Shown piece after piece: positions 1 through 43,138 of a DNA stretch of 64,000 bases; the stretch's first letter is position 1; each line of letters begins with the position of its first letter. This stretch comes from Chondrosia reniformis (Eukaryota > Porifera > Demospongiae > Chondrillida > Chondrillidae): positions 6,231,401 to 6,295,400 of the forward strand of contig OX359198.1 in the NCBI GenBank assembly GCA_947172415.1, read 5' to 3'. The notes under the pieces are model-generated. The model was given only the letters and a program-made list of their open reading frames with translations, searched no databases and had not been told where the DNA came from. The translations under genes and the position numbers were made by a program.

Positions 1-1756
1 TATTTCCGATGTCTGTTAGACTTCTAAATTCATCTGCACTCAGGGTAATCTCAATATCAGTCAAGGAAGGCGTGTAGGTAACATTTGACGGAATTAGCCT
101 ATATGTGGAGGCATTGGATACTGTAGAGGCAAAAGTTACAGATGTAAGGGTATCAATGTTTATTACTTCATCAAAAGATAAAAATACCGTGGACTCCTCT
201 ATGGTAAAACCAATAAGATTTGGTCCAGTTGTATCAGGTATAGTTTCATTGGCTTGGAAAATACCAGTCATGTTAAGGTTGACGTTAGTGTAATCCCTTA
301 CTGTTCCTTCTTGGAGTTGAAAGAAAGTGTTAGATAAATCAGTAGCAATGTTGAGGTTCCTCTTCAAAGTATCAAAATCTAAAGCAAAAAGCTGCAAGTA
401 GAGTTCAGTCTGGTCTGCTGATCTCCTATCATTGGCTGCTGGATTGGAACTCAAGGGGGTAGGTGTAGTCCCAGCACTATCACTGTATACAGTAACTTCA
501 GACAGTGTAAATGTACTCAACTGAACTGATTCATCAAATGTAAGATTTAGATATCCATAATTCATATCCAAAATGGAATAAATTACAATAGGTGGAGTCA
601 TATCTGGAACATGGTCTGCTGCTGGAAAGGCATCGGAGCTTGACTCTTCTAAAACATTAAACTCTCTGGTGTTTCTGAAAGTGGTTTCAGGGAAGGATAT
701 CCAGGTGGTGCCAACATCTGTAGCCAAGTTAACATTAGTTTTCAAAGCATTCAGGTCAGCTGAACTTAACTGTATATTAATAAAGGCTGTGTTTTCACCA
801 TTCACAGTTCCTCCAACAAGAGTGTAATAGCTGTCTGCTACTTGCATTGAACTGCTTTGGATGGTAATTTGATCATACAAGATGCTGTCAAGGAGGATTA
901 CCTTAGAAAAGTTAAGGTTTAGGACTCCTGTATTCATATCTAAGGTAAACTGTCTTAGTGATGGTCTGGTTACATCAGCTGTGAATAAATCAGGTTCTAC
1001 TCGAATAGCACTAGTGTTTAGGATGGGTTGGGCATAGTTTCCACTGGTATCTTGGATGGTAAAAGAATTCATGGTTAGGAAGGTGTTGCGATAGGATGTG
1101 GTTAAAGTTAATTGCATTTGTATTCCAAACAAATCATTTTCCAAAAGAGATATCTCAACTATTGTTCCATCAGTTGACATACTGATGCCACCAGTCAAAG
1201 AGTAATTAACTGATGCTTCTAAAATAGTTTCCAAGTCTTGAAATCCAATTCCAGAAGCATCCAAAGTTGAAGTAGAAACAGTTTCATCAAACGTAAGAAC
1301 AAGGAGACCTTCATTCATATTAAGCTGGTAGTCCAATAGAATTGGTCCAGTTACATCTTCCATGAACATGCTGGCATTTAAAGGTTGGTCCATAGAGACT
1401 CCTACTACAGGGTTTCCCAACAAATCGGAAACACTGTTCTCAGCAACACTAAGGAAAACAGTAGAAGCATTCACAGCAAAGCTCCTGTCCAGTTTCAAGA
1501 AATTAAGGTCATCAGTGAGAAGCTCAATAAAGATGGTTAAACCATCAGTAGATGAAGTTACTGAAGTAGCACTAAGAGGCAATTGAGAGGGTGCTGCAGT
1601 CATTGGCAAACTTAACAGAATGAAATCACTGAACACTATGGTAGATGTGTTTACTGTGTCATCAAAGGTGACATTTAGAAATCCATGGTTCATATCCAGG
1701 CTAAATGACAATGGGTTTGGACGAGTGTTGTCAGCAGTGTAATTTCTAACTCTGAT
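1..1756 (-). repeat. Higher-order unit copy 5, cut by window edge (5 modules)
   Basis: Approximate anchors: 1660, 1281, 905, 527 and 167. The one at 905 reads F-S-K-V instead of F-x-E-V. The frame is still open at position 1, in the I-T-L-S-A-D-E block of a module, so the array continues to the left. The next Cys-pair modules would be expected roughly 1.2 kb left of the edge. Confidence 0.7.
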
Positions 1757-4700
1757 AGCTTTACCATCAGTAACTGCCAACACATCCCTACTCAAAGTAT
1801 CATCTACGGCAGAGGCTCGTATGGTAACATAGGTGTCGCTGGCCATTGTTGCCAAACCAGGTAGCAGCTTCAGACCAAAATGGTCTTCAGGAGATAGTTG
1901 AACAGTAAGAGCATACCCATTAGGACTGCCAGTCCTACTACCCGAGGTGAGCCTGTAGACTGAACCTCCCTCTGAATTTTCTCCAGGTTGGAACTGCAGT
2001 GCCTCTGGCATCCAGGTACTCGAGTTCACAACATCATCAAAAGTTAGATTAAGCACTCCAGTATTGATGTCTAAATCAAAGAATATCAGTTGAGTGCGAA
2101 CAGTATCAGTTTCTCTCAGTGCAGAAGAAAGACAAGGAGATGCGTTAAGAGGGTTTATAGCTGCTGACACATCAAAAACTGTTCCTTCGTCAACTTCAAG
2201 GTAAGTGTTGTTAATTGTAACAGCAAGACCTGTGTCAGATTTTATGGTAATCAGGTCTTCAGATAACAGTTGTACAGTCACAGAAATTTGGCCACCACTG
2301 AGATCTCGGGGAATGAAGTTCCCACCAGTAAGACGGTGGTAGCTTCTACCACCCACACAATTTGATCTAACTACTATTCCTGTAAAGTTCAGTGACCCAA
2401 CATTTACAGGTTCATCAAAGGTGAGTTGTAGAGAGTCTGCCTCTAAATCAAGCAAGAACGATACCAGTTCTGGTCTTGTTGTATCCACAGTGTATATTCT
2501 CACCATTTCTGTCTGTCCAAGTATCCCATTAGGGTTCAGTGCAAGGTCATAAACACTATTGGTTCCAATACGAAGATAAGTATCATTTGTATTCGTGGCA
2601 AAAGTTGCTGATTTGATTGAATTTGCATCAGTATCAGTAAGGTTAATGATCACATTTACAGGATCCACTTCAATGATTTCTCCTCCAGTAAGATAGTAAT
2701 AGTCACTTTCATCAGCTGACAGGAGACTGGCTCTCTGGATAACAAATCCACTGGTACTAAAGGTACTAGTTGTGTCTACTGGTTCAGTAAACTGCAAAAT
2801 GAGTTGATTGGTGTTCATATCTAGATCAAAGTATACAAGCTCCGGATCCTCTTCATCAGGTGTGAAAACATTAACAATGATTCCTTGCATGGTTTCCTGA
2901 AATGAATTTCCTGAAATATCTTGGACTAGTCCAGATCTCAGAGTTATATAACAGTTGCCTCTGCTTGTGCAGATATCCATGTCATATTTCAGAGCTACTA
3001 AATCATCCATGGTAAGAGTGACTTCAAATCTAGTTAAACTCACTGCAGAAACTGTACCATTGGTGAGGTTGAGCATTGAGAGAGGCTCATCAAACAAGCT
3101 CTGCAGAGTGATATATTGTGGCTGGAAGGTAGCAATATTCACTGCCTCATTAAAGTCAATTGTCAGTACTCCTGTCTGGAGATTAATCTCTACAAAGCCA
3201 CTGATCATTGGCAAATCCGTGTCATTTACAACTTGACTGGCACTTTGTCTGTCAACTGAATCGATGGGAAATCCTGCCATATCTACTACAGCATTTGCAG
3301 GCAAAGAAAGAAAGCAGTCATTTGCCAAATCATTTGTGCAAAGATCAGTCAGATTTTTCAAACGGTTAAGTCCATCATCTGTGAAGATAACTCTTACCAT
3401 ACTGCTATGATCTTGTTGGATAAATGCATAGCTATCAGTCAATGCAAATGATGATGCAGAAGTGATGTTTGACCCGAAAAGTATTAGAGAAGACACACTG
3501 AATGCGGTCACATTGACAGTTTCATCAAAAGTCAAAGCAAGTACACCAGTGTTAAGATTTAAATCAAATGAGGAGAGTTGGGGCACTTGTTGATCGGCCG
3601 TGTATTCTGAAACTTGTAGGGCATCAGTACTTAGTCTGCTCTCAATTCTGTTACCAGACATGTCTGAGATTAAGTCCCCACTAAAGTAAATAAAAGTTGT
3701 TGACTCACTGATGGCCAAGTTTGGATCTCTTTTTATGGCGTTCAAATCATTGGGATTGAAAGTGAAGTTTAGTTCAATTCCGATAGATTCATCAGGTGAA
3801 CCTCCTGTTAATTTGTAACTGACCATGTCATTGTCAACAGTATTTTGGAGAGTGATCTCATCTGGCTGAAGTTGGGCTGAGTTGACTGTCTCTGAAAACA
3901 CTATTCGCATGGTTCCTGTATTCAAATCAAGAGCAAAACGTCTAACTTCTGGTCTAGTCAGATCTGGTCTCAAAAACTCAACAACAACCCCAGAAATGTT
4001 GTCATTTGGGTTTTGGTGGATGTCATATATGGCACCCTGTAGGAATCCTATGTATGTTGTAGGATCACTAACAGCAACAGTAGTGTCAGCTTTGATTGCA
4101 TTTAAGTCTGCATCACTTAGGGACAATTCCACAATTCTACTGTCTTGATCATTAGCTGTAACGTTACCATTGATTAAAAAGATCAAAGATCCTCCTGATG
4201 GACTTCCTGTGAAGAATGTTCTTGAAAAATCAAAGGAAGTGGCATTAACATCTTCCACAAAAGTTAGTACCACTTGACCTATGTTAAGATCAAAGATGAA
4301 TTGCTCCAGCAGTGGTGGAATCAAATCTACATTGTGCTGGCCTTCCCCTACCATAATGGCATTAGATGAATTGGTTTCTAGCAGCAGCTGTCCATTCATA
4401 TCTTGTATAGTACCAGCAGCAATTGAGATATATGTGGAATTGGGATATTTTCCAAGTGGGGCTTTAGATTGAATGTCAAGGAAGTCATCTTGGCTTGGTA
4501 TGATGGTAACTTCAGGAGAATTGGTTGTAGAAGCTAGAGAAACTGTCAGTTGACGATTTATGTCACCTTCTGAAAGAGATAGCTGCAAGGTTATACCATC
4601 TTGTACAATGGTGGAAGGACGAACTGTTTCTGAAAAACTCAAAATTAGAGAAACGGGCGGAAAGCCTTCAATTTGTTGAAACTGGAATGACACTAAAGTT

Positions 4701-7700
4701 GGTGGAATGGTGTCTTCTCTGAAGTTTCCAGGCAATCCATTGTTACTAGTTCTATTGTTTATGGATATTTTATTGATGTCCTGTACAAACATTCCATGTG
4801 ATATAAATGTGGATCCTGCACTAACAGCTAAGCTCTCATCTGCTTTTATAGCATCAGCATCTCCTCTCAAAAGCTGTATGTCAATGATGTGGTTGTTATC
4901 CACAGAAAAGTCTCCCCCATTGAGTTTGTGGAATGATGTTGAAGATAGCTGTCTATTTTGAATTACAATTCCAGTTGGGTCTAAAGTTGAAGCATCAATA
5001 GTTTCACTGAAGGTCAGAGTAAGTAGTTCTAAGCCCAGGTGCAAAGTGAAACTTCGCAGCTCTGGAGGAAGTGTATCGCTGAATACACTACTGGCTGGAA
5101 TGGCCATGGAGACAGGAATCTCACCAATATCATATCCAGCCATATCTTGCACAGCTCCTGCCAGTAAGACAAGGAATGTATTACTACTGTTGGTTCCAAA
5201 ATTTCTAAACCTTTTGATAGTGTTAATATCATCCACAGTCATTTCAATGGTAACTATGTTGTTATTTTCAGTTGTAGTGGTTGTGGCATTCATCAATGTC
5301 AGATTTTGCGCAGTGGCAGCATTTCTTTGGCTATACAGGATAAAACTGCTGGTCAGAATACTTGAAACATTGATAGTTTCATCAAATGTTAGCTGCAATT
5401 CGTTGCTTCCAAGATCAAGTGTAAAACTCATGAATTGAGGTGGTTCTGTATCTGGAGTACAACACGGAGTGTCTAGGGCAGCACTGATGGGAATTTCATT
5501 GACTCTTCCAGAGGCTAAATCCCTGATAGTATTAGAGCCTAGTGTTAGAAAGGTATCATTTTGACAGGTTGCAAGGCTAGGATCAGCCTTCAAATCATTT
5601 ACATCAAGGGAGGATAACTGGAGAATAATTGTATCCCCACTGTCACCCAGAGATTCAACCATTTGCAAAGGTCTTGTCACAAAGCCACTTCCTGGTGTCA
5701 AATCAGCTGCAGCCAAATTCTGGAAGGATATCTGTCCCACCATTAGAGTATCAATATCCACACTTTCTGAGAAAGACAACGTGAACACACCAGTGTTCAT
5801 GTCTAAACAAAAGTTTACAAGACTAGGTCTAGTGGTGTCAGGTTCGAATTCAGATGTTCTTATTGTTGTGGCAATGAGTGGATTATTCCTCATATCAAAA
5901 ACAGATCCATCAGATATAGTGAGATACGTATTATTGGTAGTTGTAGCAAGGTCTGTGCTCAGCTTGATTGCATTCAAGTCAGCAGTTGTAAGAGTAAGAG
6001 TGATTACATCACCTTCACCCGCTGGGTTTAGTGTGCCATTGGTAAGGTTATACATTTCTGTCACTTCAGTTGGGTTGGGTGAATTCTGAAGTCTAATATC
6101 AGAAATACGCAGTGTTGTTACATCCACTGTCTCTGAGAAGGATAAAGTGAGTGTTTCTGAATCAACTCTTAGGAAGAAGCTCTCCAATGTTGGTCTGGTG
6201 TCATCCGATGTGTAATTCCTTACAAGGAAACTATCTTCAGGAACAATTGATCTGATGGCATTTCTAAAGACATCTCTGATAAATTGTGCGGTGATAGAGA
6301 TGTAGGTATCGTTCCTTGAAGTGGCCAGACCTCTGAGAGCTTTAATGGCATTCAAATCTGTCACTGTCAGATTAATTATAAGTTCGTAATCATTTTGGCT
6401 ATCAGTTGATCCACCGCTGAGTGAATACATATTGAAGGTATCACTTGGGTCTTGGTTAGCTCTTAAGGTTACCTGGTTATAATCAATTATACTCACATCT
6501 ACCACATCATCAAAAGATAGCGAAAGCTGCCCTATATTCATGTCAAGGTCAAAGTGCACCAGCTCAGGACTTAGTGAATCAGTCTGGTAGGAGTCCACTA
6601 TATAGCCCGAAGAATCAAGGATCGGTGTTATTGGATTTCCTGCAGTGTCTTCAAAGGCTGCCTGAGTAAAAGAAATGTAGGTTTCTCCACTGCTACGAGC
6701 TAGACTACTCCGCAATTTTACATTTCTCAAATCATCAGAATTCAGTTCAATACTGATTGAAAGTTTCAAGGTGTCTTCATAAGTAGCTATACCACCTGGT
6801 GTCAGACTATAGCTCTCATCCAATCCACTATAACTAGATTGCATCTGAATAGCAGAGGCATTATAATTTGATAATTCCACTGGTTCATCAAAGGATAACT
6901 GTATTACACCTCTATTCATATCCAGCAAAAAGAAGGTTAACCGGGGATTGGTGGAGTCTCCAGTGTATAGACCTACTTGCTGTAAGCCATCTTGTAGCCT
7001 AGAGATATTGACTGGATTTTGATCTACTACCAAATCAACTGCCAGAGAGGATGTATAGTTAATGAAAGTAGTTGCAGCAGATGATGCTAGTCCAGTGGTT
7101 GCCTTTAAGTTTATCAGATCATCAGGATCCAGTGTAAAAATAAACACTTCCCCATTTTCAGTAGTTGAAGTGGAGAAATCAGTCAATGTGTACTGACTAC
7201 CACCTGAGATGTTGCTGGAGAATGTTATTACTACAGGGTCTACAGATCTAAAATTAACTGGCTCATCAAAAGATAAAGTGACCATGCCAGTGTTCATGTC
7301 CAGGTCATAATCTACCAATTGAGGCTCAGTTGTGTCTCCAGTAAAGGTTAATGCTCTCTCAGTGGTTCTACCATCAAAATTAGGGGGAACTGGAACAAGG
7401 TTATTACCTGCAATGTCGGTGATAAAGGTGGTAGCTAATCTTACCCAACAGAGTCCTCTGGATCTACAGATATCAGTTAGCTTCAGTGCATTCACGTCTC
7501 TTGTTAGAAGCTGAATAGTAATGACTGTACTATCATTTCCAAGTATTTCTCCACCAGTAAGTTGAACTCCTACATTGTCATCAACGGTAAAATGAAGATT
7601 AAGAGCAGTTGGATCAAATGTGGAGACCAGCACAGTTTCATCAAATTCAAGTGTCAGTTGACCAGTGTTGTAATCAAAATCCTGGAATAGTGCCAAATTA

Positions 7701-10700
7701 GGGGGTGTGGCATCAGTTATTAAGTTATTTACATTCTCAGACATGTTAGCCAGTATGCCAATACCTACTCTTCTACTGGTGTCTGAAAAGGTTCCTTCTG
7801 GGAAGTTAATAAAGCAGTTGGAGACCATTGTACAGACTCTCAGTCTCAGCAACTCATTTCTGTCAAAATCATCAAGTATAACAGTTACTTCAGCTGAATT
7901 GCTGGTTGGAAGACTAACATTTGATAGCATTAGTGAATTAGAACCAGTTCTAGTTCCACTTAGGACCATATCGTAAACCATTAAGGAAGACGTCAAAATG
8001 GTTTCATTGAAATGAAGGGTCACTTCACCAGTGTTTACATTCATGTCAAATGAATCCAGTTTCGGTCTATTGGTGTCTGGCGTTAGTCTTGTTACTCTTA
8101 CAGCTATATCAGAAGTGATAGGATCTAATTGGTTGGAAGCAGCATCAGTGATGAACATATTGGTAGAAATTAGTAGTGTTGTATTTCCGCTTACAGCTAC
8201 TTCGGTGTTTGCTTTCAAAGAATTCAAATCTTCATCTGATAATGTTAGACTTACTACTGTCAACATTGGCTGATCAACAGAATTGTCCATTGCATTTGAA
8301 TCACTCAAGCTCACACTAGATGCTGAAGTATCTCTTGAACTGATAAATGTAAGAGCTGTCAAAGTTAGTGTTGAAGTTCTAACATATTCAGTGAAAGTCA
8401 AGGTCAAACGTCCATTGTTCAGATCAAGATCAAAAGCACTAATAGAGGGGGGATGGGTGTCTGGAACATACTCTTGTGCAATGATGGCTGGCAGTACTAG
8501 CTCAATTCCATTGTTTGACATATCCCGAAGACCACCTTGAGTCACAGACAGATAGGTATTGGAAGATGATGTTGCAACTGTTGCATCACTTTTTATTTCA
8601 TTCAAATCTTCATCACTAAGTTCTACAACTACTTCTGTACTGTAACTTGGAACAGTCATGCTTGTTGTAAGTTCATGTCTGTTACCAGAAAACGCAGATG
8701 GTCTGATTTGGAAGGAGTTAGGCAAAAAGGTGCTTGAGTTTACAGTTTCATCAAAAGTAAGAATTAACTGTTCGTCTAACAAGTCAAGAGTGAAATTCTG
8801 CAGTATTGGTGGTGTCTGGTCTGGTCTCACTGGTTCCACTCTAAGTCCTGAAAATGACTGATCATTCATATTAGATGAGAGATCTGAAAGAGTATTAGCC
8901 AAAAGGTAGATAAATGTGTTCATGGGGCTGGTAGCAATAGATGTATTAGCTTTGTAGCTATTCTGTAGGTCTACAGTAAGTTGGAGAACTAAAGTGGCAT
9001 TGATACCTGATGGTACAGTACCCACTAGGGGCAATTGTACAGAGGGAGAATCAGCATTATTCTGAAGGATGATGTTAGCAAAGCTGATTAGAGTAGAGGC
9101 ATTTACAACTTCATTAAACATTAATGTCAGTTGACCATTGTTGAGATCGAGTGCTGCAGAGATCAGAATAGGTGCAAGGTTATCTTTTACATATACTCCA
9201 ACTGGTTCAGCATTTGTAGCAGGTATTGGGTCAGCACCTTGACCTTGAGCATCAAGGATTGAGAAGTTGGTTAGAGAGAGGAATGAATCGGCTGCACTTG
9301 TAGCAAGATCAAAGTTTGCTTGAAGAGCAAATAGATCTCCAGGGTCAAAATCTATAGTTAGCACTTCAGAATCAATAGCATCAAGTACTGTACCTCCGGT
9401 TAGTGTATAAGAGATGTTATCTGAAGAAGCAGAACTCTGTAACTTGAACTGATCAAACTGAATTGTGGATCGTACAACAGTTTCTGTGAAGGTCAATACA
9501 AGTTGTCCCAAAGCCATGTTCAAGGTGAAGTTTTGAAGCACAGGAACTTTTAAGTTAGCAATCAACCTGTTTGTTCTTAGTCCAGCTGTTATGAGAATAG
9601 GTTCAAGAGCATTTCCAGCAATATCCAACACAGTTCTGTTCACTGCGGTTAGGTAAGTAGATGTTTCATCTTGTGCCAAGGTGAGAACAGAAAATATACC
9701 ATTCAGGTCATCTTCTGAAAATGTTACAGTTAATATTGTACCATCTGTTGTTTCCTGAGGGTTGCCAACATCAAAGGTAAATAACTGCTCTGGAACTTGT
9801 GATGAATCAATCCTTGGCTGAAGAGTAATACCAGTAGTGTCAAAGCTGTCTACTTGAACTACTTCAGAGAATGTCAAGGTGATGATTCCTTCATTCAAAT
9901 CAAGGTTATATTCTAGGATTTCTGGAGAAGAGGTGTCTGGAGTGACAGTTTGAGCCTGCATTGCTGTGGCATTTTCAATGGCTGTTACGTTGAACCCAAC
10001 AAGATCTCTAACAGCTCCTTCACTTACAACAAGGAATGTTTCAGTGGAATACAAGCGATCTCGTTTGATGTTATTGAGCAGAGTAGAATTGAGCTGAACA
10101 TTTAATGTATACCCATCATCTGATTGGAGAACGCTATCAGCCAATAGTTGGTATCCAGGAGTTAGTGGGGCACTCTGTAAGAAAACCATATTGGGATCAA
10201 AAGTTTCTGAGTCTACAAAATCAGTAAAAGTGATGTTTAGATAACCTGTGTTCAAGTCCAAAAGGTAGGAGTCAACTGAAGGTGGAGTGATATCACCATA
10301 AAATTCTCCTGCCATTAAGGCACGTCCATTGGTGATTGCTGATACATCAAAGCCATTAATGTCTTTGATTGTGGAGGCTTCCATTGTCAAAAATGTAGTT
10401 GAAAGACTTTCAGCTACTCCTGCTGCTGATTTTAATCTCAATAGACATGACGGGTCAATGTAAATACGAATGACAAAAGAATCAGTATCATTTGTATAGG
10501 ATAAGCTGGTGAGAGTGATAATGCTTGGTTCAGTGGCAAGAGTTGCATTCTGAATGGAAATGGCAGTGGCATCTAATGTACCTCCCTGCACAACATCATC
10601 AAAAGTTAAACGAAGAGTTGATGTTTCAAGATTCAAGGAAAAGTTGGTAAGCCTTGCCCGTGCCATATCAGCAGTAAATGTGGATCTGGCTCCAAAAATG

Positions 10701-13700
10701 GGAAGAATGCTGTTACTAGCTGTATCAACAAATGTTCCTAGGGAGAATCCAATAAAGGTATCATTTTCAGAGTCACCCAGACCTTCCATGACCTTTAGAG
10801 CTAAAATATCTTCCTCCAGTAGTGAAATAGTGATGGTTGTGGATGCAGAATATGTAGAAGTCTCGATGACAGAGCCTCCACTCAGAGAATGGTTGTAGGC
10901 TGGTATTTCAGAAGAATTGGAGATGATGATATTACTTACTTGCACCAGGCTAGTAAGAACAGGCTCATTAAACTGGAAAGACACTTCATTACTATCCAGG
11001 TCTAAGCGGAAAGCCACCATCCTAGGAGGTAAGGTGTCAGGAACATACAATCTCACAGGCTCAGGGTTGGAAGTTGAAATTTCAGTAATGCCATTTGGTT
11101 GAATAGCAAAGTCTGTGATTGCATCAGAGGTCAAGCTAAGATAAGTGTTTTCACTCTGTGAAGCTAAACCTAGGACTGACTTCAGTTGATTCAAGGTGGG
11201 TTGAAGTATATAGATATAAATGATCATGTCTCCATTTGAACTATTGGTATATGCATCATTAGTCAATGGAAAGACTTCGTCTTCACTAGCATTGGCTCTG
11301 GGGAGTAATGAAATTCGGCCATATTGTATGGAATCTACCATCATTGGTTCCGAGAAGTTCAATGTGAGGAGACCCAAGTTCATATCCAAGTCAAAATTGT
11401 ACAATTCTGGTTGCTGCATGTCATATATCAGTTCAAAAGCGATTCTTCCAGGGAAAACTTCCTCCACAGGTTCAAGTGAATTTCCTGAAGTATCCTCCAC
11501 TGTGAAAGCAGAGGCTACGACATAGCAATGAGCCCTTCGATCACAAAGGTCTGGATCATTACGAATGGCAGTAAAGTCAGCTGGTGAAAGAGCCATTCTT
11601 AGTATGGTGCCATCAGAAATTAAGGGTATACCACCAGTCAGGTTGTAGCTACTAGTAAAAGCCTCTCTGACATAGAGGGACTGCAATCTTAAACCAACTG
11701 GATCAAATGTCCCAACAACAATTGTTTCTGAAAATTCAAGTTCAATTTCACCAGTTACTAAATTGATTCTGGTAAATCTGGTCAACATTGGACGTGTGTC
11801 ATCTCCTATAAATATGGAAACAGCTACATTTGTTCTTGGTACTACAGAGGAATTTGTTGTGTCTTCCACAAGCCTGTCTGTAAATGTCATCAAACAGGTG
11901 GTATTTGTGAGACAGATTCTTAGTCTTTTGAGATCATTGCTATCATTACTGCTGATTGCTACTATGACATTAGGTGTAGCCTGCTGTGTAGATGTGCTAG
12001 TGGTGAGAGTATAATCTGAGCCAAGGCCATTGCTGAGCAAGATATCAGAGATATTTAAGGAAGAAACATTTACTGTTTCATCAAAATGAAGGACTAATTT
12101 ACTGGCATTTGCATCATAGTCAAAAGTCAGAAGAATAGGACTTTCAAAATCCTTAATAAAGTTAGAAGCTTGTACATTTGTGATGGCCAGAATGTCGACT
12201 CCTGAAGCATCCACAAAGGCTCCCACTTGAAGTGTTAGGTATGTATCTACAATAGAGGTTGCTAAATCATCAATTGCTTTGATCTCATTTGCATCAAACT
12301 CAGTTAGACTTAATGTAAACTGAGTACTAAAGTTTGTGTTAGTTGAGCCTCCAGTTAGAATGTATTCACTTCCATTTGTATTTGTGAGAGTAATGAGACT
12401 AACTCTAGTGGCCTGAACATCGACAGTTTCATCAAAGGTGAAGCTAACTGTTTCTGCATTTAAGTTAAATGAGAAGTCATTGAGTGTCGGTGGACTACTG
12501 TCTGGAATGTACCTTTCTACCAAAGATGCAGCATTTACAGGTACATCTTCTACCAGGTTGTTACCAAGATCTGTCAACATACTAGTTGCAGCATCAATTG
12601 ATAGATAGGTGTTGGAATCACGGGAGGCAAGCATTGGAATGGCCTTGATCATGTTCAATTCATCAATGCTGATGCTCACTGCTACCTCACGAGTTGATAT
12701 CTGGGTTAGGACAGTACTGCTCTCCAAAGCCTCACTATACAATAAGCTGTTGGATGAGCTTTGAAGTATAAGACCAGCTGGGTCTAAAGTGGATCCATTA
12801 ACAGTTTCAGTAAAGGTCAAATTGAGCAAACCCTCATTCATATCAAGGATAAATGCCTCCAGAGTTGGTTGGACTAAGTCAGCAGTGAAATTGTCTGGAA
12901 GGAGAGGTGAAGACAAGGATGCTAGTCTTTGGTTACTGGTATCTACAGTTAGAGGAGTGAAAGATGTTGTGTCAACTTGCAAGTAGCATAATGACCTCTC
13001 CTGGCATAATGGAGCCCTGTTCCTTATCTGTTCCAAATCAAAGCTGCTTATGATCACATTAATGTCTACATTGTCTCCTACAGCTACTAATCCACCAGTA
13101 AGGGTTATGTCAGAGCTAGCATTAGACACATTTGAGAGTTGTAGAGTTATCAAAGTTAGACTTCCTGTAATTAATGCTCCATTAACTGTCTCAGAGAAAT
13201 GTAAAACCAGAATCAGTGGCTCCATCCCGTTATTCATTAACACATCAAAGCTGACAATTGATGGTGGAGTTACATCAGCTATGACTGTTGCTTGAACTCT
13301 AGGAGTTTGAACTATTGTGTTACTTGAAGTATCATTCACTGAGCTGTCTCCTAAGCTAAGGAATGTGGTGTCATCAGAAGTGAGTATGTTTGGATTGGCT
13401 TTCAGTGTGTTTATATCATCAAAATCAAACCTAACTCTTACAGTCTCACCATCTGATGCAGTTAGAGTTTCTCCGCCTGTGAGAGTAAAGTTGGTTGACG
13501 GATCAGTGTCACTAGAAAAGAATGTAAAACTAGTGAACACTAATGATGTTACATCTACCACTTCTTCAAATGTTAATGTGAATGAATTAGTATTCAGATC
13601 CACAGTCAATCCTAACAGTTCGGGAGGAGCAGAATCAGGAGTGTGATTGGAGGCTCTGATGGCATTGTTCATTTCGACAGTGATGACTGGATTACCAGCT

Positions 13701-25700: not shown

Positions 25701-28700
25701 TTCTGTGCTAGCACTAGAAGGTCAGTTGAATCTAAAAGAATAGACACAACTTCACTTTCTGTACTGTTGACAAAACTGTTCATGCTCAGTCCAAAAAGTT
25801 GAGAATTGGCAGAATCTTGAGTATCTACCAACATTACTGCCGTCACATCAAACGTACCTTGATGCCTAACATATTCATCAAAAATAATCTCTAGTACTTT
25901 TGTACTGTAATCAAGGTTAAATTCCACAACATTAGGTCGACTAATATCAGGCAAAAAGGAACTTGGTGAAACAGATCCAGTAGTGCCAGCAATGGGAATG
26001 CCTGCCATATCTCTGACTGCATCCATACCAATCTCCAACTGCATGGCACCAGACTCAGCAACTACTAGCTTAATCTTGTTCAAATCTAAAAAAGTTAAGG
26101 TAATATCCAAGGTGGCAGAGTTGCTTCCATCTGGAGCACTGTTAGTCAATCTGAATGAATTGTTTCCACCTGTGAAACTGAACTGGGAACTGTTGAAAGT
26201 ATTAACATTTACGACTTCACTGAATGTTAGGTTTAGAACACCTTCATCCAAATCAAGGTTGTATGATTGAAGAGTTGGTGGCGTGGTATCAGGGGTAAAT
26301 TGGCGAACACGTGTACCAGATGAGGCTGGTATTTCAACAATATTTGAAATACTGGTATCTCTTACAGCTGAGCTCATGATGGCTATATAAGTGGTCTCGT
26401 TACTTATAGCCAGACCACTCAAGAGCTGTATCTGTGATAAATCATCTTCTGCCAGTTGGAGAACAATGTAGGAAAGGGGGTTGGTGCTTGTATTTCCATC
26501 AGAAAGTTGAACAAATTCTGTACCAGCCATTGCACTACTTTGAAGTTGCACACCAGAAATGTCTTCAATGACAACAGCTTCCGAAAATGCAAAGATTATC
26601 ACACCTGAATTTAGGTCAAGATCAAAGTAGTTTAGCCTGGGTGGTTCTATGTCTCTAACAAAGGAAGAGGTAGGAAGGGAATCCTCCGATGAAATATTCT
26701 GAACTGGATTGCCAAAGAAATCTGTGAAAGCAGGTCCACTGATGGACAGATAGGTATCCAGTGCACTTGTAGCTACTTCAGTATCAGACTTGAGAGCATT
26801 CAAGTCTTCATCAGACAGACTGATCTCATACAATCTAGCATTACCATTTCTTAAAATACTAGACCTGAGTGTATAGCTACCACCTGAGGCAGAGGTAGAA
26901 TTCCTAACTCCTTGGATCGTTATAAAGGAGGGATCAAAGGGGAGAGTGGTTCCTGGTTCACTCAATGTCAGTGTTAGCAATCCCATATTCATGTCCAAAC
27001 TGAAGGAATTGACTGAAGGACCAGTCTCATCAGGAATGATGTTAACTGGCAGAGTGAAATTAGCAGGAGCAGGGTTGTCTGATAAATCTCTTATGTAGCC
27101 TTGACTGGCATTAAAGCTTATGTTGCCTCCAGCAAAATCAGCTTCACTTAGAAGGACGAAACTGTCAATATCATCCATGAGTGGTATCAGTTCAACAGTT
27201 TGACCATCCGGCAATCTATTTGAAGTGCCTCCATTAAATGTGAAATTGTTGAGAGAAATTGACTGTGGAGTAAGTGAGGAAGCTAGTAGTAAATCGGTGA
27301 GTTGTAGAGACAGTATGCCTCTGTTTAAGTCTAGAGTAACACTCTCTAGCAGTGGTGGATCTTCATCTGGAATAAAAGTGCCAACTTGCAGAGCCTTTCC
27401 ATCAGTGACTGCTAGAACATCCAATCCAAATACATCATCAATAGCAAATGCTTGCATAGTTAGCCAGGTGTTACCTTGAGAAGTGGCAACTCTACGGTTG
27501 TCTCTCACAGCTAGCTGGTCATCTAGAGAGAGCTGCATTTCTATCGTGTAGCCATGGTTACTTGTAGTTGTAGAGTTGGTGGTAAGCTGGATGATTTCTC
27601 CTGCTCGTGCCCATCTACCTGATTGCAGTGCAAAGGCAGAGCCATCAAACGTTAAAGCATTAACAATATCAGAGAAACTCAAGATGATCTGACCAGCTTG
27701 AATATCAAAAGTAAAGCTGTCCAGACGAGGCCTACTATTGTCTGCTACGTACACGGCTACTCTTATTAAACCAGTGTCTGTGATACCGTTATTTGCAGTG
27801 TCCACTACCGAACCAGGGGAAATGGAAAGATAGGTTGTGTTTTCATTTGTGCCAAAGTCTGAGCTCAATTTGATATCAGGAATATCAGCTCTGGAAAGAT
27901 CAATAATGACCATATCACTAATACCCAAATCCAGATTTGCAACTGTTCCATTAGTCAAGCGGAATTGATTTCCAGTTCCAATAGCATCAGAATCAATGGC
28001 TATTCCTGAAACATTGAAGCTGGTAAGTAATACCGGCTCATCAAAGGTAAGAATTATTTGGTCATCGTTGATATCAAAAGTATACTCCAAAATGACTGGG
28101 GGAGAACTATCTGGGATATAGCTCCCAACTGCTTGTGCACCTGACATACTTATGCTTCCAAGTGGGTTGCCTGATGTATCTACAGCAATATTACCAGATG
28201 CAGCCATCAGAGACAGGTAAGTATTGCTGATGTTGGTGGCAAAAGAGAGAGATTTTAAGGTATCAAGATCGTTACGGGATAGGATTACTACAATATTAGA
28301 TGCAGTTTCTGTAGAGTTGAGCTCTGAGGTGGTCAGCTGATGGTACATATCCATATCTGAAAGGGAGACAGTCATATTAGCCTGAATGAAAATGGCCTGG
28401 AGGTTAAAATCTGAAGCCACAATAGGCTCATTAAATGTCAAATTCAGAACTCCCATATTCATATCTAATTCGAAGTCTTCTAACACTGGAGGTCTCATGT
28501 CTATGAAGAACCTTTCCGGTGCCAAGGCAACTTCTGTTCCCACATTGCCATTGCCACTCAAATCATTCACAAAACCTGTTTCTAGTCTGATATAGCAACT
28601 ACCTCTGGTGACACACAGCTCTGGTTGCTCTTGAATTCTAACAAGATCATCTGAAGATATTTCTATAAAGATAGTCTTATCACTAATGGTGGTGTTAGCA

Positions 28701-31700
28701 ACTGATGTGAACTGTACCATAGCTGTTGCATTATCATAAAAGTTTAAGAGCGAGAGGCGTGATGCGACTACTGTAGCATCCATCAATGGTTCATTAAACT
28801 CAAGTGAAATGTATTGAGTAAAAAAGTTGATGAACACAAATCTCACAAGTACAGGTCCTGCCCTGTCTTCCACAATAGCAACAGAAAAGGCATTATCTAC
28901 AGGTCTTCCAAACACAAACGTGTTGTTGTTGTCCATTACTAAGGTATCAGGAAAAGAAATGGCACAGTCTACAGACCCATCACACATTGGAAGTGACTTG
29001 ATGGTGTTGAGGTCATCTTCAAGTACGTTTATCTGCATGGATACTGAATCCACTGTTGTAATGAGCGCAGAAGCTTGTAGATTATATGAAAGCGATCCAG
29101 ATGTACCATTTTGGAAAGTAATAAGAGATACATTAAAACTTGAGTATTGAACTGCTTCCGAGAATGTCAGTGTTAAAATACCTGATGTTAGATCAAGACT
29201 AGCCCTAACAAGCATTGGACGGACAGTATCCACAGTGAGGATGTTGACAGGTTCAGCTTCCTTCCTCTGCACCTCTTCTACAAACAGATCAGCCATGTCT
29301 TGAATAAAACCAGATGTGAGAGAGAGATAGGTGTTACTGTAGTCCGTAGCCAGGTTTGCCAAAGCTCTGATATCAGAGAAGAAGGTTGTAATATTGTAGA
29401 AGACACAATCTAAAGCTTCATTTGGTAGGTAGCTGATCAAGGCAAGAGGATTAAGTTGAACAAAATGTTCTCCATCTAAATAGTTTCTTCTATCCTGAAA
29501 GTACAGTTCACGGCCATCTACTGATGATGTATTGACAGGCTCATTGAAGCATAGTTCAATGACACCGCTTGAGGCATTTAGGTTATAATATTGCAAGACT
29601 GGTCTTGTAGTATCTGGCAACACTATAGCTGCAACAGCATCCCCTGTGACTAGGTTCTCGGCACAGTTATTAGCTAGATCACATACTAGCATATTTGTAT
29701 GGGATAAGAAGGTGTTATCCATTGATGTTCCAAAGTCAGGGTTCCTCTTAATGTAGTTAAGATTCACTGGAGTGAGTAACACTTGCAGTGTTGAAGGTTG
29801 ACCAGAAATAACAGTAGCTGATGCATTGGTGATAGTCAGATTGTCAGCTGGTGTGCTCTGTGCATTCAATAGAGTGATTAGATCTGCCATTATCGTTTCA
29901 TTTCTCAAAACTTCACCATCAAAACTCAAACTCAATGTACCAGTGTCCAAATCAAAAACAACAGCTGTAAGTTCTGGAGGTTTCAAGTCGTCATCTCTAA
30001 ACTCCACTGGTACTCCTGTATCAGCACCAATGGAATTACCAGAAGTGTCTGATACTGCGTCTGCTCCTACATCAATGTACACAGGCAATATGCCATCTGG
30101 ACCTGCAGCCTCTCTGATTACAGAAAGAACAGCATTGCTGACATTAACTTGAATTGTGCTGGCATTGGTAGACTCATAAACTCCATCTAGCTGTACTATA
30201 CCATTAGTTCCATTTGATAGGGTGAATAGACCAAGGTTGAGCGTCTCAATGTTTATAGTTTCATCAAAATTAAGTGTGATCATCAAAGGCTCCTCAATCA
30301 AGACAAAGGTGAAGTTTACCAGAGTTGGTGCAGTCATATCAGTAATCACACTGCCTGCCACGGCATTAGCAAATGTGACTTCATTGATGGCCAGGTTGCT
30401 CAAGTCAAACACAGCATTGGCTTCAATTGAAACATAGGCAACAGCATCTGAGGTTACTAGCAGGGGTGAAGTTTTTAGCACATTAAGATCCTCAGGTGTG
30501 AGGGATACAGTAACTGAAGAAACAGAAGCTTCAGAAGGATCTATAGTAGTATCAGATAACATTCGGCTAACCCTTGGTGATGCGGAGTCATCATGGAGTG
30601 TAAAAGAGGTTACCTGCAAGGTCTCAGTTTGGATGCTCTCATCGAAACTTAGTACCAATTGACCGTTATCCAAATTAAGAGTAAAACTTCTCAATCTTGG
30701 AGCAACTGTGTCATTGAAGAAAGTATCTGCAATCTTTCCAGCATTTCTGGGTATTTCAGTTAGTGGATTACCGCTGGTATCATTAACAGTGGTGCTTTCT
30801 GCAGTGAGGTATGTATCACCCTGGGCTGTTCCAAAACCAATTCTTGATTTAATAAAATCAAGATCAACCTGGGGTACTATGAATTCAATTACTGGTCCCG
30901 TGGGAGAGGAAGTTGTGCCACTTGTGAGCCTTCTAGAACTGACAGGGAGGAGTGGGGAGCTCTGGAGTACCAGTCTTGTGGCATTGAATGTATCTGGATC
31001 CACAGTCTCGGAAAATGTAAGGGATAATAGGCCTGTACCCATATCAATTGAGAAAATCCTAAGTTCCGGTTCAGTTCGATCTGGGATATACTGTGATGGT
31101 GGTTCAGCTAAAGCAGGATTAATTGCATTTCCTGATACACCAGAAGTGTCTTCAAAGGTGTTAAAATTAATTGATAGAAATGTGTTACTTTGATCAGTTG
31201 CAAGATCACGATTAGCCTTGATATTATTCAGATTAGCATCTAAAACCATCACACGTATCAGGGCACCTGAGTCATCTAATAGTGAGCCACCATTTAGAGT
31301 TTCAGATACCCTATCAGCTGCAGTGGAGCTCTGAACAGTCAACCCAGAAGAATTAAAAGTATTACCCTGAATAGACTCTGAAAAGTTTAACGTAATAATG
31401 CCCTGATTCATGTCAAAGATGTAATTGAGCAAGATTGGAGGGGTCATATCAACTCTGAAATCAGTAGCCTGAAAGGCATTATCAGATGGACGAGGAGCTA
31501 CTCCATTACCAAAAACATCTTCAAAGGCAATCTCTGTGAAAGATAAGAATGTGTTATTTTCATTTGTTCCAAGACTGCCCATAGCTTTGATAGCATTAAT
31601 GTCATCGCGATTTAAAGTGATGGTAAGGACGGATGATGGATCTGATTCAGAGATGGTAAATCTTGAGAAAGAAAACACATTAGTGGTATCATTTGATGAA

Positions 31701-34700
31701 TTCTGAAGGTTCAGTTCATTGTAGTCAACTGTAAGTGGCTCAATGGCTTCAGAAAATGATAAAGTCAGTATGCCGGTACCAAGGTCAAACACAAACATTT
31801 CCAGTTCTGGTTGCGTATTGTCCCCTATAAACTCTCCAACTTGAAGGGCTCTTGATGATGTAACAGATATAAGTTCCAATCTGGCAACATCCTCTATGGC
31901 AGTGGCAGCCATCACAATGAAAGTGGTACTTGGACTGATCGCAAGCTCTCGTATTCCCTTGATTCCATCTAAATTCCCAGCGGTAAGGTTAAGATAGATG
32001 ATGTAGCCATCTTCCATTGATGTTGATCCTCCTGTCAAGCTATAAGTAAAGGTACTATCATTGTAAGCACTTTGAAAGCTAACGTCCCTTGGATCAAAGC
32101 TTGCAGCATCCATGACATCATCAAATGTCAATGCAATTTCCCCACTATCCATGTCAAGTGTAAAGTTAAGAAGCTTAGGTTGAGTGTCATCACCTCTATA
32201 AGACTGCAGTGGCAGAGCGGATGTAAAATCTATAGCTTCATTAAGGATGAGAGCTACATCTTGTATGGCACCAATGTCAATGAAAGAAAAGCTGTTTGAT
32301 ATGCTGGTTCCTAGGTCTCGAGCCAACTTTAACGCTTGGAGGTCTTCACTATTGAGGGTAATCCCCACTTCTAGTTTATTTGTGGTAATGTATACCAGGT
32401 TTCCTCCAGTAAGACGAAGCTGGGTTCCCGAGGACATGCCTGCTTGAAGATTAAATCCAGATGCATTAAATGTTTCATTTGCAACTGGTTCATCAAATAT
32501 AAATTGTAATAGCCCACCATCTACATCAAGCAGTGAAAATGTCTCCAACTGAGGAGGAGTTGTGTCATCTATGTAATCAAGAACAACTAAACCCATAGAA
32601 GAGTTGCGAGGAACCAGGTTATTTCCTGTTCCATCAGGATTAGCTAAGGCTGTATCTGTTACTAAGGAATCAGTATAGCTCAGAAAAGTGTCTGATACAG
32701 AAGTAGCAACTTGTCTCTCAGCTTTAAGAGAAATAAAATCAGTGGGATCAATTGTAAATTCCATCACTGTACTTGCTGCAGTTGATTCAATATCACCTCC
32801 AGATGGCAGATTTATAATTAATGTTCCAACTTCAGCTTCTTGAAATGAAAGTGAGGATGGTCTAAAAGTGGTGACGTCAACAGGCTCATCAAAGGTCAAT
32901 GTCATTCTTCCAGTATTCATATCAAGTGAGTAGCTTTGAAGTACGGGAGCTGTTAAGTCTTCACTGTGGTTCTGAGGTCGAAGGAGGTCTTGAAAAAATG
33001 GAAGAATATCTAGAGGTTCAATTGGATTACCAAACATGTCAACAAGAAACATTCCAGTCACTCTGAACCAACACTCAAAGTCATTGCGACATACATCGGC
33101 TCGCCTTTTAATGCTGAAAATGTCCTCTTGAGTCATTTCAAAAAAGAGATAATCAAAGTTGTCAGTATTCATTGAGGTGCCATCAGTAAGATCAATTATG
33201 AAAGCACTTGCATCAAAATCATTAGCTATTGAGGACTCATTAAAGCGAACTGATCCTATGTCTACAGTCTCACTGAAGCTTAGCACAACAAGACCTTCAT
33301 CTAAATCAAATCTGGTGAAAGTGATTAGTCTTGGCGAGGTGGTGTCATTTGTTATGTTATTCACAGGAAGAGCACCTATTAGTAAGTCAGATAGTCTTGG
33401 CTCAACATAATTACCAGCAATATCTGTTACAAGTGTGAATGGAAACTGAGCATAACAACCTGTGGTATCCCTACATATTAGTAGCCTTTTAAATTCATTC
33501 AAATCTCCATTGCTCATTTCTACATAAACATTTCGATATGGAAACAAATCAGAGGCATTTAAGTAAATATTTGCCTGCTGGATCCTTGTTACATTCCCAC
33601 TAGTGTCTCCACTGTTGTAGAAGTCAAAGAGTGTAACATTCAGGGAGTTTTCATAATCTACAGCTTCATCAAATGAAAGCACAATTATTCCTGAGTCCAG
33701 ATCAAAATCAAAAGTAGTCAACATTGGTCTTGTATTATCAAGGATGACATTGCTAGCAAGAAGAGGCATTGATGGTAATATTTCCTGAGCAGGGTTGCCA
33801 AAAAAGTCTCCAATGACGCCAACTTCAGATGGTGGCATACCAGACCTTGTTAGTGAGATGAAAGTGTTAGTACTGTTAAACCTTTCTATCTTGATTCTGT
33901 CGAGATCGTTTGGACCCAGCCTAACTCTAGCAATAATGTAGTCATCATCTGCTTCAAAATTATTACTTTCTTCAGTCAAAACTATCCCTTCTACTGATGG
34001 GGATTTTAAAAGTGTGGCATGGGACATCGAGAGACTGGATTCATCCACTACTTCATCAAAAGTCAACAAAAGCACGCCATCATCTAAATCTAACACAAAA
34101 TCCATGAGAATAGGACCAATTTCATCAGGAGTAAAATCCCTGACTGGTTGAGCTGTGCTACGAGGAATGGGAACCACTCTGTTATCAGCAATGTCATTCA
34201 CTAAACGATCAGTGAAGGATATGTAGGTGTCATTTCTGCTGGTTGAAATGTTGGAGTTAACTTTAAGGGCATTTCCATCATCAGTACTAAGTTGGATTTC
34301 TACTGTGTGGTTTTCAGGAGATGTTACAGAGCTATCCGTTAACTGATAAAAGTTACCAGTAGCATTTGTTGCATCTTGAAATATAATCAAGCTGACATCC
34401 AAAAACTCCACCTCCACAGCTTCTGAGAAATACATTGTGAGCATTCCAGTACCAAGATTAAGGTCAAATGCTTCCAAATATGGACCTGTTTCATCAACAA
34501 TTACTGTACCAGCCAAACCAGTATTCACACCTACAATATCATTACCGTCAGGTGGAGCCATGTCCGATACAGAACCATTAGAGTAAATTACAAAGGTGCT
34601 ATCACTAGAAGTGCCAAGGTCCCTCAAAATATTAATAGTTGCAAAATCATTCTTGCTCAATGAAATATTGAGAATTGGCTCATTATCTTCCATCAGTCCA

Positions 34701-37700
34701 GATTCAGGGAAACTAGTCCTGGCTGTAGCAAGGGAATTATTAGGATTGTTCAGCAGAGTAAACGAACTAAGCATGAGGCTTGAACCACGAATTGTTTCAC
34801 TAAAAGTTAAGATGAGATGACCAGAATCAAGGTCAAGTGTGAAAGCATTGAGCTCTGGTGGAGTGGTATCTGGTACAAAATCTCCTCCATCATTAAATGA
34901 TACCAAAGCATTTCCAGCCATGTCATCAATGTATCCCCTATTAAGTACCAGACGATTGGCTGCTTCGCTTGTGGCAAGATTTTCATCCTTCTTTATCTCA
35001 TTCAGGTCATCATTAGTTATGGTGATGTTTAAGAGTGTAGATGGACTCGCTGTGTATTCCCCTCCAGTGAGAATATAAAAGGTACCAACAGGAATAGGGA
35101 AAAAAGGATTTGCCAAACGTGTATCATTAATTTGAATAGTCAGTGGATCCACAGTTTCATCAAAATAGAGAAGGAGATTTCCACTATCAACATCAAGTTC
35201 AAATCTCATAAGATTAGGATCAGTACTATCAGGAGTAAAAGAGCTGGCTTTTCTGGCTGAGTCAGACATTATCTCTGCTGTAGGATTTCCACTAACATCC
35301 TCTACAAAGGTTGGTGCAAGTACAATATAAGTGTTACTTAAAGTGGCTGCTACATTTCTCAGAGCTTTTAGATTATTCAAATCAGTAGCATTGAGTTGTA
35401 ACTCAACAATGCTAGGATCATTTGCATCAGGGAAATTTACACTTGCAAATCCTTCGGATAAGGTATACATAAGGTCTATATCACTAGTATTTCTTCTCCC
35501 TTGAAAGGTAACTGCAGTAGCATCAAAAGTACTCTCCCTAAAAGCTTCAGTCATAGTTAAGGAAAGGGTACCAGTGTTTAAGTCAAAGTTAAATCTCTCA
35601 AGTTCTATTGGAACTGAATCATTGATAAAGTTACGAACCTTGAGGGCCATGGCATCAGAGATGGCTAAATTACTGTTTTCAAAGAAGTCTTCCACAGCAT
35701 CGGCATCAATAGACAGAAATGTATTGTTCTCACTGGTAGCCAAGTTCTCATTCTGTTTGATTATATTCAGGTCAGCCTTAGTCAACTCAATGGTAAGGAT
35801 AAACTTGTTGTCCCCAAGGAAACTGGTACCACCAGTTAATGGAACTCTGTTGGCTCCAGTACTGGCGGGAGCAGCATCTTGGATATAAAACCGGAAATAC
35901 ACAATACTATCAACGTCCACAAAATCATTAAAGGTGACATTGAGATACCCTCTTCCTAGATCAAAATCAAAATATTCCACTTCCGGAGGTAGATCATCAA
36001 CTGTAACAGATGTGGCCGAAATTGCCTTACCATCAGTGATGGCCAATACATCAACTCCTTCCAAGTCATCAATAGCAAAAGCTTGGATTGTGAGGTAGGC
36101 ATTTCCTGTATTTCTTGCCAAAGGTCTTCTCCTCTTGATCTCATAGAAGTCATCATTAGAGAGTTGAACTGTGATATTGTAACTATTATTTGTAGAACCT
36201 ATAAATGATGACTGAAGGGTGTAGTAGTTCATTTCTGGGTCACCAAACTGTCTTACAGCATTCTGTAGCCGAAAAGCAGTGGGTTCAAAATCTGAAATAT
36301 TCATCACATCATCAAAATAGAGATCTAGGGTACCATTCAAGTGGTTCACAGTGAACTGCAGGAGCTGTGGTCGTGTTGTATCATCAATAAAGACTACAGC
36401 AGAAGTACGGTTGATGTTATCTATTAGATTCCCAGACATATCAGCCAAGGCTCCCATTCTGACAGCAATAAAGGAGTTACTTACACCAGTACCTATTTGA
36501 TTATTCAGTTTAAGCATCTCTACATCATCACTGGTCAAAGCAATGGTTATACGTCTGCTTCCTATGCCATCTGTGAGTACACTACCACCACTGAGAGCTT
36601 GAGACTCACTTGGATCCATACCACGAGAGTAGAGGGTAAAGTATGTAAAGTTGGTGAAGGTAGATATTCTTACTGGCTCATTAAAGTTAAGAATCAAAAT
36701 GTCGTCATTTAGATCTATCTGAAAGTTTCTAAGCTCAGGTGGAGTTGTATCAGCTATGTAATTGTAGGCTTGTTCAGCTGAGGATATAGTCACAGGCAGA
36801 ATGGGTCTTGGTTCATGAGCTGTATCAGATACAAAATTGGACGTAAATGTCAAGAATGTATCATCGGTACCATTTGCAAGTCCATCAGTCAACTTCAGGT
36901 TGTCTAAATCATCAGAACTCAGGGCCAGTACAAGCTCAAGGTCCCGTTCACCACTTGCACTTCCACCAGTTAGGCTGACAGTCAGGGTTGTTCCATTCAC
37001 AAATGAAGGGGTAGATTGAAAAGCAGCTTGTGAAGGATCCATGGTACTTGCATCTACTGGCTCACTGAATGATAGACGGACCACGCCCATATTCAAATCT
37101 AAAGTATAGTTCTCTAAAACAGGTTCAGTCACATCAAGAGTAAAGTCAATAGCTAGCAGGGCATCTTCACTAAGCTTGCTAGTGCTAGGGTTACCACTGG
37201 TATCGGTAATACTTCCAGAGCGAATGGCAATGTAACATTGGTACCTTCTGGAACATACATAAGGTTCTATCTTGATGTTGTCCAAATCATACTTTGTCAA
37301 GTTTATTCGTAGAGTTGATGAGAATGCATTCTCAGCAACTCCTGATGTTAGGGTATAGGTACTTAGGGGAGAAGCTTCATTGAGGGTCTGGAATGTTAGT
37401 CCTGTAGCATTAAGTGAAGATCCATCCACTGGTTCATCAAATCGTAATTCAATGTAGCCATCCATAAGATTGAAGTGGAGGAAGCTTTGAAGCTGAGGAG
37501 ATCTTTGATCTGGAATAACAGTTACATCAAGATTACCCTGCTCATTAATTCTGCCAAAGCCATCTTGAAATATTCCAGCAGGATGGGAGACAAGGCAATC
37601 ACTGTTGTTTAGGAGGCAAAGTCCACTCACCTTCAGGTATTCCAGATCGTTGGAATTTACATTAATGCCGTGAACAGTAGATCTATCACTACCAAGACCA

Positions 37701-42814: not shown

Positions 42815-42820
42815 GGTGAA

Positions 42821-43105
42821 CTATAAACAGAAGTAGTACATATAATTAATTAATTACAAATGTTAAGGAGTACAATAGCAGATCATAATACTACTCTTGA
42901 TACTTTATGTAACACTATCAGTGGTGAAGCTAACAACTATTAAAGTGTCAGTACGTTCGTATATTCCTTGCTACCTTGGATCAAATAGCAAATTAATCTC
43001 TCGGTTGATTAGAATTCCAACCACAAGTGATTATGTTTAGTCCACTTGTCACTTGTTTGTCATGTATTGATGCGCACATGTATGGCTTCCTATTCATTCG
43101 CTTAC
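42821..43105 (-). other. Candidate 5' UTR intron of the left gene
   Basis: On the minus strand AGAG|GTAAGC (intron starts at 43105) is a strong donor, and a pyrimidine-rich TTCTGTTTATAG ends at 42821, six bases before the ATG. If used, it removes 285 bp and places a 5' UTR exon above 43105. The arrangement mirrors the right gene, whose acceptor also abuts its start codon. The acceptor could instead take a spliced leader. The stretch 42830-43100 holds no gene that I can see. Confidence 0.5.
43023..43056. repeat. CACTTGT cluster (one inverted, two direct copies)
   Basis: ACAAGTG lies at 43023-43029, and CACTTGT at 43043-43049 and again at 43050-43056. The first and second form 7-bp inverted arms separated by 13 bp. 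CACTTG resembles E-box and NK-type homeodomain sites, but short motifs like this occur by chance. It would lie inside the candidate 5' UTR intron of the left gene. Confidence 0.3.
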
Positions 43106-43120
43106 CTCTCTTTTGCTGTC

Positions 43121-43138
43121 AAAGGGCAAAAGCCCTTT
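43121..43138. repeat. Perfect 7-bp hairpin near the left gene's 5' leader
   Basis: AAAGGGC and GCCCTTT flank an AAAA loop. In a left-gene transcript it would form a small stem-loop about 15 nt above the proposed 5' UTR donor. It might affect splicing or translation, but no known element is recognised. Confidence 0.35.

Follow-up and report, generated by a model that had tools for sequence, protein, structure and literature searches.

What keeps a chain of several hundred immunoglobulin (Ig)-like modules to a count of 23? The question is raised by a window of 64,000 nucleotides from the sponge Chondrosia reniformis (chr10 6231401-6295400, in an assembly of 117,379,552 bases and 15 contigs), in which two giant genes of one module family start back to back. 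The left gene, whose frame extends beyond the window to give an open frame of 22,295 amino acids (aa), is predicted to comprise 9 exons that splice to 124,320 nt and encode 41,439 aa, with a signal peptide and 335 Ig-like modules. We find that modules 0-321 of this model fall into 14 blocks of 23, each divided into 12 + 11, and that the register is held across all of them. Modules were cut with a profile hidden Markov model trained on the left protein's own modules, leaving matches of 5 bits or less out of the count, and the place of a module within its block of 23 is referred to as its phase.

The original prediction had placed five linkers 23 modules apart in the window. They were located where it put them, with TDGKA at 36023-36037, 27392-27406, 18872-18886 and 1757-1771 and the variant TNGRA at 10319-10333, and from the N-terminal side they end modules 16, 39, 62, 85 and 108. 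Of the 14 blocks in the whole left model, 12 carry the linker pattern, exclusively at phase 16. The excess of identity expected at lag 23 is present among window modules 0-112 (0.2894, z 11.3; the adjacent lags 22 and 24 give 0.2539, z -0.1, and 0.2595, z 0.7), and it recurs at lags 46 (z 6.4) and 69 (z 5.8), lag 92 reaching just z 2.1. In the 335-module model, identity at lag 23 is 0.299 (z 19.5), compared with 0.264 and 0.2625 at lags 22 and 24. Multiples of 23 up to lag 253 show z values of 6.1-19.5, followed by 3.7 at lag 276 and 1.9 at lag 299, while 300 order shuffles gave a maximum z of 4.51 over all lags. Lags 11 (z 5.5), 34 (z 4.4) and 35 (z 3.5) are also raised, owing to the half-repeat described below; lag 11 is the sole non-multiple of 23 above the shuffle maximum. 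The 180 modules of the giant second exon show identities of 0.283-0.295 at lags 23, 46, 69, 92, 115 and 138 versus 0.2586 overall, with no further lag above a robust z of 3. Chance, composition and alignment effects were ruled out as sources of the signal by the order shuffles, the neighbouring lags and the two sister genes, which served as controls. Tandem Repeats Finder reported one 39-bp array in the window and not the higher-order repeat, since the copies are too diverged, and a gap-free lag scan gave a weak hint of the period at most.

The period is accompanied by a strict register. Among the 334 comparable modules (module 334, which is partial, lacks a comparable partner), 154 rank their own phase first of 23, against 14.5 expected, and all 154 lie within modules 0-321. 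In sliding windows of 11 modules, shift 0 was best in 79 of 82, the 3 exceptions beginning at a module index of at least 316. From the phase ranks and the sliding windows together, the 14 blocks of 23 (322 modules) have neither gained nor lost a single module, and the register passes through all introns of the left model. The best match of a module lies at a multiple of 23 for 105 of the 334 and at 11 or 12 modulo 23 for 47. Module length, a trait outside the identity test, likewise varies by phase (analysis of variance p 1e-11, Kruskal-Wallis p 6e-6). The estimate of about five copies thus fits the window; the gene model holds 14 because the left gene extends far outside it.

Within the block, the period has an inner structure. 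Within modules 0-321, phases 0, 1, 12 and 13 make up 56 modules, of which 55 contain a pair of cysteines, C79 and C85 (CX5C); elsewhere, the pair is present in 2 of 279 modules (78 and 146). Leaving these two aside, the pairs are spaced 11, 1, 10, 1 up to module 312. Phases 0, 1, 3 and 4 are similar to phases 12, 13, 15 and 16. The cysteine pairs and the likeness of phases therefore resolve 23 into 12 + 11, each half consisting of a five-module cassette plus a spacer. The cassette has a fixed order, with two cysteine-pair modules, two more modules and then a module marked by FDDV; phase 16, which closes the second cassette, carries the signatures FDDV, MRAD and VLAITDGKA and no cysteine pair. 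Spacer phases of the two halves do not match each other, and the likeness between the halves is confined to the cassettes.

The age and history of the blocks were assessed from silent sites and from the spacers. At fourfold-degenerate third bases, same-phase pairs one block apart are identical at 0.341, with 0.33 expected; silent sites are therefore saturated, and the amplification is ancient. Spacer modules alone retain lag 23 (z 8.7, versus 0.4 at lag 22 and -1.2 at lag 24) and lags 46, 69 and 92 (z 2.5, 5.1 and 4.7), so that the blocks are truly copies of one another, with neighbours slightly closer. The proposal that a 23-module block was amplified and then deeply diverged is borne out by the spacer-only signal and the saturated fourfold sites. 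A recent duplication or an assembly artefact was ruled out by the 29% identity and the same saturation, and a nested doubling history (46, 92) was not apparent on visual inspection of the block matrix.

Conservation differs strongly among phases, with z values of 31 at phase 16, 16 at phase 13 and 0.7 at phase 6, phases 6 and 21 both being below 1. A module tree, covering 8 of the 23 phases and 112 of the 322 modules, agrees in part with the expectation that modules of equal phase cluster. Phases 13 and 16 each form a single group (Shimodaira-Hasegawa-like approximate likelihood ratio test 93 and 90), and phases 1, 3, 4, 15 and 20 cluster (3, 6, 4, 6 and 8 changes, versus 13.4 when shuffled), while phase 8 is scattered (13 changes). 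Over all phase labels the tree requires 22 changes versus 79.4 shuffled, and no branch reached the starred level. The clustering of cassette phases is biased upward because the phases were picked after conservation by phase was known and the cysteine columns were kept; phases 8 and 20 are the spacer comparisons.

These data bear on the simplest account of the repeat, in which ancient tandem copying of a 23-module DNA block was followed by drift, leaving a period with no role of its own in a protein that serves as a bulky glycocalyx or matrix polymer. The spacer signal, in which lag 46 is weaker than lag 23 though lags 69 and 92 are not lost, is what such a fossil would retain, and lag 23 is slightly more similar (0.299) than lags 46-253 (0.284-0.292), as serial duplication would give. 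Set against this, conservation is concentrated in the cassettes even though silent sites are saturated, no module has been gained or lost across 322, and the neighbouring gene keeps the cassette at a different period. Amplification by itself accounts for the period, and not for the phase conservation, the constant module count or the sister-gene cassette at another spacing. The uneven conservation rather suggests, as far as sequence can tell, selection on periodic positions besides amplification, and we regard the fossil account as rather doubtful.

The left model places the giant second exon, as predicted from the DNA, in one gene for a secreted giant protein. Its exons measure 70, 66689 (exon 2, chr10 6273724-6207036), 822, 19166, 243, 4479, 22016, 6866 and 3969 nt, and the ATG at 42451, which starts the mechanical open reading frame, falls inside the proposed first intron. 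Signal peptides of the left and right genes were called by eye. All 8 exon junctions are in phase and 7 have acceptable sites. An alternative would be several neighbouring genes that resemble one, their shared period stemming from tandem gene copies. The donor at junction 5 to 6 is weak, which makes that junction unsure, and the single gene is itself a sequence prediction, both in line with separate genes. After splicing, however, every spacing between module starts falls at 105-150 aa, so that the split modules complete each other, and the register of 23 continues through junctions that are all in phase; several genes therefore seem very unlikely. The model stops mid-module at chr10:6148100, with AATAAA 149 nt further on. 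No splice donor was noticed near the stop, and inspection of the 8 kb downstream by eye revealed no C-terminal anchor; the 3' end may be truncated, or a last exon may be unrecognised. A furin-like RTRR site lies at window 41921-41932 on the minus strand, between modules 0 and 1, and just 3 RX[KR]R patterns occur in the 41,439 aa.

The modules are predicted to adopt an Ig-like fold related to the S-layer protein SbsC and to FMG1. For these comparisons we selected 89 window modules out of the 113 complete ones (alignment A2) and 57 five-module windows (alignment A1). In the AlphaFold2 models of five modules and of a single module, the fold consists of two sheets and one short helix, arranged in tandem as in the FMG1 beta chunk repeats. 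In Foldseek, the five-module model matches FMG1B best (9gos, E 9.3e-17); 9gos is absent from the single-module match list, and its chain of more than 3,000 residues is outside the VIA-align comparison. The modules are predicted to share the S-layer-type Ig-like fold of the bacterial family Big_5 (PF13205). At E <= 0.1, 8 of the 89 window modules match its profile (best 5.9e-4). The window frame scores 21.4 bits over its first 2150 aa, below the Pfam gathering cut-off of 23.6, and does not match over the following 3000 aa. Titin-type Ig and FnIII are absent from the 19 families listed for the 89 window modules at E <= 0.1, and Calx-beta was not found in the 5150 aa of left-gene fragments and 89 window modules scanned. 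NCBIfam returned 22 families with one member of the 89 each (best E 2.7e-4), which we took as chance. A sequence search of the PDB gave 3 weak partial matches (best E 0.07), and one consensus query confirmed no prokaryotic or viral relatives (340 and 51 pattern matches). In the portions drawn on of CC-licensed PMC literature about the largest proteins, giant sponge proteins, longest exons, aggregation factors and giant sponge genes, nothing was recognised as the module family of the left gene.

The match to FMG1B, a ciliary coat protein of Chlamydomonas, brings in a mucin- or FMG1-like coat as a further reading. The left protein would then form a brush, long and rich in N-glycans, at the cell surface or within the mesohyl, where it would block or tune adhesion, with the cysteine-pair modules as stiffness-setting joints instead of docking sites. 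The predicted protein has a mass of 4.5 MDa, 180 cysteines and 3.16% arginine. Its acidity (isoelectric point 4.05), very low lysine content (0.96%) and surplus of N-glycosylation sequons (931 versus 617 expected) suit a coat. The low lysine content and the sequon excess may also hide the protein from trypsin-based proteomics. The excerpted FMG1B report (PMC12021028) describes a chain of 34 Ig-like repeats with a disulfide in each repeat, and its excerpt mentions no higher-order period. Both proteins are tandem chains of ~110-aa Ig-like repeats built of two sheets plus a short helix, with low self-similarity and N-glycosylation; FMG1B has a transmembrane anchor and ~10-fold fewer modules. A cysteine pair in every repeat is an FMG1 trait, whereas in the left protein C79 and C85 occur in 57 of the 335 modules. 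Exact spacing would be needless in a brush, and the strong conservation of phase 16 comes without a cysteine pair. Taken together, we consider the coat reading unlikely.

The cassette is not restricted to the left gene. The right gene was analysed as 127 modules, after one half-module fragment (index 96) was dropped, and shows no 23 signal; its period is 18, with z values of 5.3, 6.1, 3.1 and 2.7 at lags 18, 36, 54 and 72 (-0.5 and 1.1 at lags 90 and 108) and a top value reached by none of 2000 shuffles. Its phases 6-10 are collinear with left-gene phases 12-16, the first of 414 offsets. Cassettes at modules 0, 24, 42, 60, 78 and 96 are the top six with either cassette profile, the first step being 24 and the rest 18, and control profiles from phases 6 and 18 reach 2.7 at most. 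The third giant gene, covered over 14,197 of its 15,845 aa and over its final 314 (114 modules), shows no significant period (p 0.215), and its cassette-like places, at 0, 17, 55 and 85, are irregular. With the consensus query, the genome matches listed, the best 150 of 589 candidates scored, all lie in the three giant genes, and weaker ones elsewhere are possible. About 1 kb downstream of the right-gene open frame, at chr10:6324110-6324938 on the plus strand, are a frame with an SRCR domain and a second frame that combines a transmembrane-like stretch, KKKK and a tail rich in Pro and Tyr; the two are either the end of the right gene or a separate SRCR gene. Copies of the tail occur on the other strand at chr10:6334339-6334677 (94% identical) and 6338704-6339048 (89% identical). 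SRCR domains are abundant genome-wide: the best 150 of 893 candidates all pass the Pfam cut-off, and many are clustered on chromosome 3.

Table 1. Coordinates of the blocks, cassettes and predicted genes (window positions unless chr10 is given).
Feature	Position	Strand	Remarks
Left-gene exon 1, predicted, with signal peptide MGVKLKLLLLIQMVFLNVVSHAQ	42745..42814	-	donor CAAG/GTGAGA, phase 1; joins exon 2 acceptor in phase
Left-gene exon 2, window part, Ig-like module array	1..42324	-	modules 0-112 complete
23-module block 0, modules 0-22	33719..42304	-	
23-module block 1, modules 23-45	25172..33718	-	
23-module block 2, modules 46-68	16574..25171	-	
23-module block 3, modules 69-91	8054..16573	-	
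Block 4, 21 of 23 modules (92-112)	203..8053	-	blocks run on to block 13 outside the window
Cassette A, block 0, phases 0-4	40409..42304	-	module 0 weak N-terminal (7 bits), without C79/C85 pair
Cassette B, block 0, phases 12-16	35981..37831	-	cysteine-pair modules 12, 13; linker DVLAITDGKA ends module 16
Cassette A, block 1	31802..33718	-	
Cassette B, block 1	27344..29200	-	
Cassette A, block 2	23279..25171	-	
Cassette B, block 2	18824..20671	-	five modules folded with AlphaFold2, mean predicted local distance difference test (pLDDT) 91.7
Cassette A, block 3	14723..16573	-	
Cassette B, block 3	10274..12130	-	linker variant TNGRA
Cassette A, block 4	6182..8053	-	
Cassette B, block 4	1709..3574	-	
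Stretch separating the start codons of the divergent giant genes	42815..43775	.	
Right (divergent) giant gene, signal peptide MRLWYWLLLMLFTSKWTAVLA, then same module family	43776..64000	+	open frame of 15,998 aa, reaching chr10 6323169
Right-gene cassette, modules 0-4	43842..45581	+	module 0 partial
Right-gene cassette, modules 24-28	52662..54533	+	
Right-gene cassette, modules 42-46	59373..61424	+	
Third giant gene of the module family	chr10:7520058-7567592		15,845-aa open frame with TIG and Calx-beta domains at its end

We favour, with middling confidence, a secreted periodic scaffold, a giant filament in which the cassettes act as evenly spaced nodes and which works in the manner of titin. 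It is favoured because phase conservation has persisted after saturation, because no module has been gained or lost, because a sister gene has the cassette at another spacing, and because of the signature shared with the titin C-zone. Under this proposal, an ancestral unit of ~11-12 modules headed by the five-module cassette would have doubled to 12 + 11 = 23, and the 23-module block would have been brought to 14 copies, which diverged until silent sites were saturated. Selection since then would preserve both the residues of the cassettes and the number of modules in each block, as the cassettes would be docking or stiffening nodes on an extracellular filament. At titin spacing (11 domains in ~43 nm), nodes would lie ~43 and 47 nm apart, a block would span ~90 nm and the whole chain ~1.3 micrometres. 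Expression, a single transcript and secretion are what we infer from the predicted gene, as are the docking role, its partner and the order of duplications.

Several observations weigh against the scaffold. The most serious objection is that simple duplication history explains the spacer signal, so that part of the lag-23 excess calls for no function, and that one species is covered. Eight phases (6, 7, 8, 10 and 19-22) are conserved at z below 3, and phase 2 bears no resemblance to phase 14, so that the cassette is not uniformly kept. The final 13 modules are out of register, none of the 12 comparable ones ranking its own phase first. Block length, 2,847 +/- 15 aa, is modestly tighter than that of 23 random modules and adds little, because random sums already give a standard deviation of 23.7. 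In the right gene, the cassette at module 42 scores 2.7 with the phase-12 profile, level with the control maximum. The gene model draws on DNA sequence, adds ~6 residues at junction 5 to 6 and ends mid-module with no C-terminal anchor noticed, and no relatives were found outside C. reniformis in the collections searched, which lack other eukaryote genomes. The docking role is reasoned by analogy, and the nanometre values are borrowed from titin.

If the scaffold reading is true, selection for even spacing can act on giant proteins outside muscle, and one type of node can be spaced differently among sister genes. An exact register over 322 domains has outlasted the loss of silent-site signal, and low self-similarity can hide such order, none of which Tandem Repeats Finder reported. 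More broadly and only tentatively, the left protein could be the largest predicted animal protein, perhaps with the longest animal exon (both against known records), serving as the extracellular ruler of an animal without muscle. A titin-like two-level super-repeat of 14 x [12 + 11] modules would then have an independent origin on an Ig fold of S-layer type, and its five-module node would be portable, being spaced otherwise in sister genes (18 in the neighbour), each of which would set its own spacing in the matrix or surface coat. Human titin has ~35-38 thousand aa and the algal PKZILLA-1 ~45 thousand.

Among known systems, the core proteins of sponge aggregation factors are secreted giants rich in Calx-beta domains. 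The left gene differs from them in module family and in its higher-order period, and Calx-beta is found, with TIG, at the end of the third gene. The excerpted text of a review on sponge collagen gives no fibril period ('periodicity' and 'banding' are absent from it). Ruler super-repeats are best known from muscle, where titin is cytoplasmic, and the left protein is a candidate for one in a secreted sponge protein. According to the excerpted titin study (PMC10665226), the C-zone super-repeat comprises 11 domains in 11 copies of ~43 nm each, with conservation focused on two positions. Titin in the A-band C-zone and the left protein are both giant chains of the Ig superfold with a long-period super-repeat and position-specific conservation. 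Titin is built from Ig and FnIII domains and belongs to muscle, whereas the left protein has S-layer/FMG1-like modules, a signal peptide in its model, a sponge as its source and a period of 12 + 11. The resemblance is thus a functional analogy and not common descent: like the titin C-zone super-repeats, the left protein may work as a periodic scaffold or ruler.

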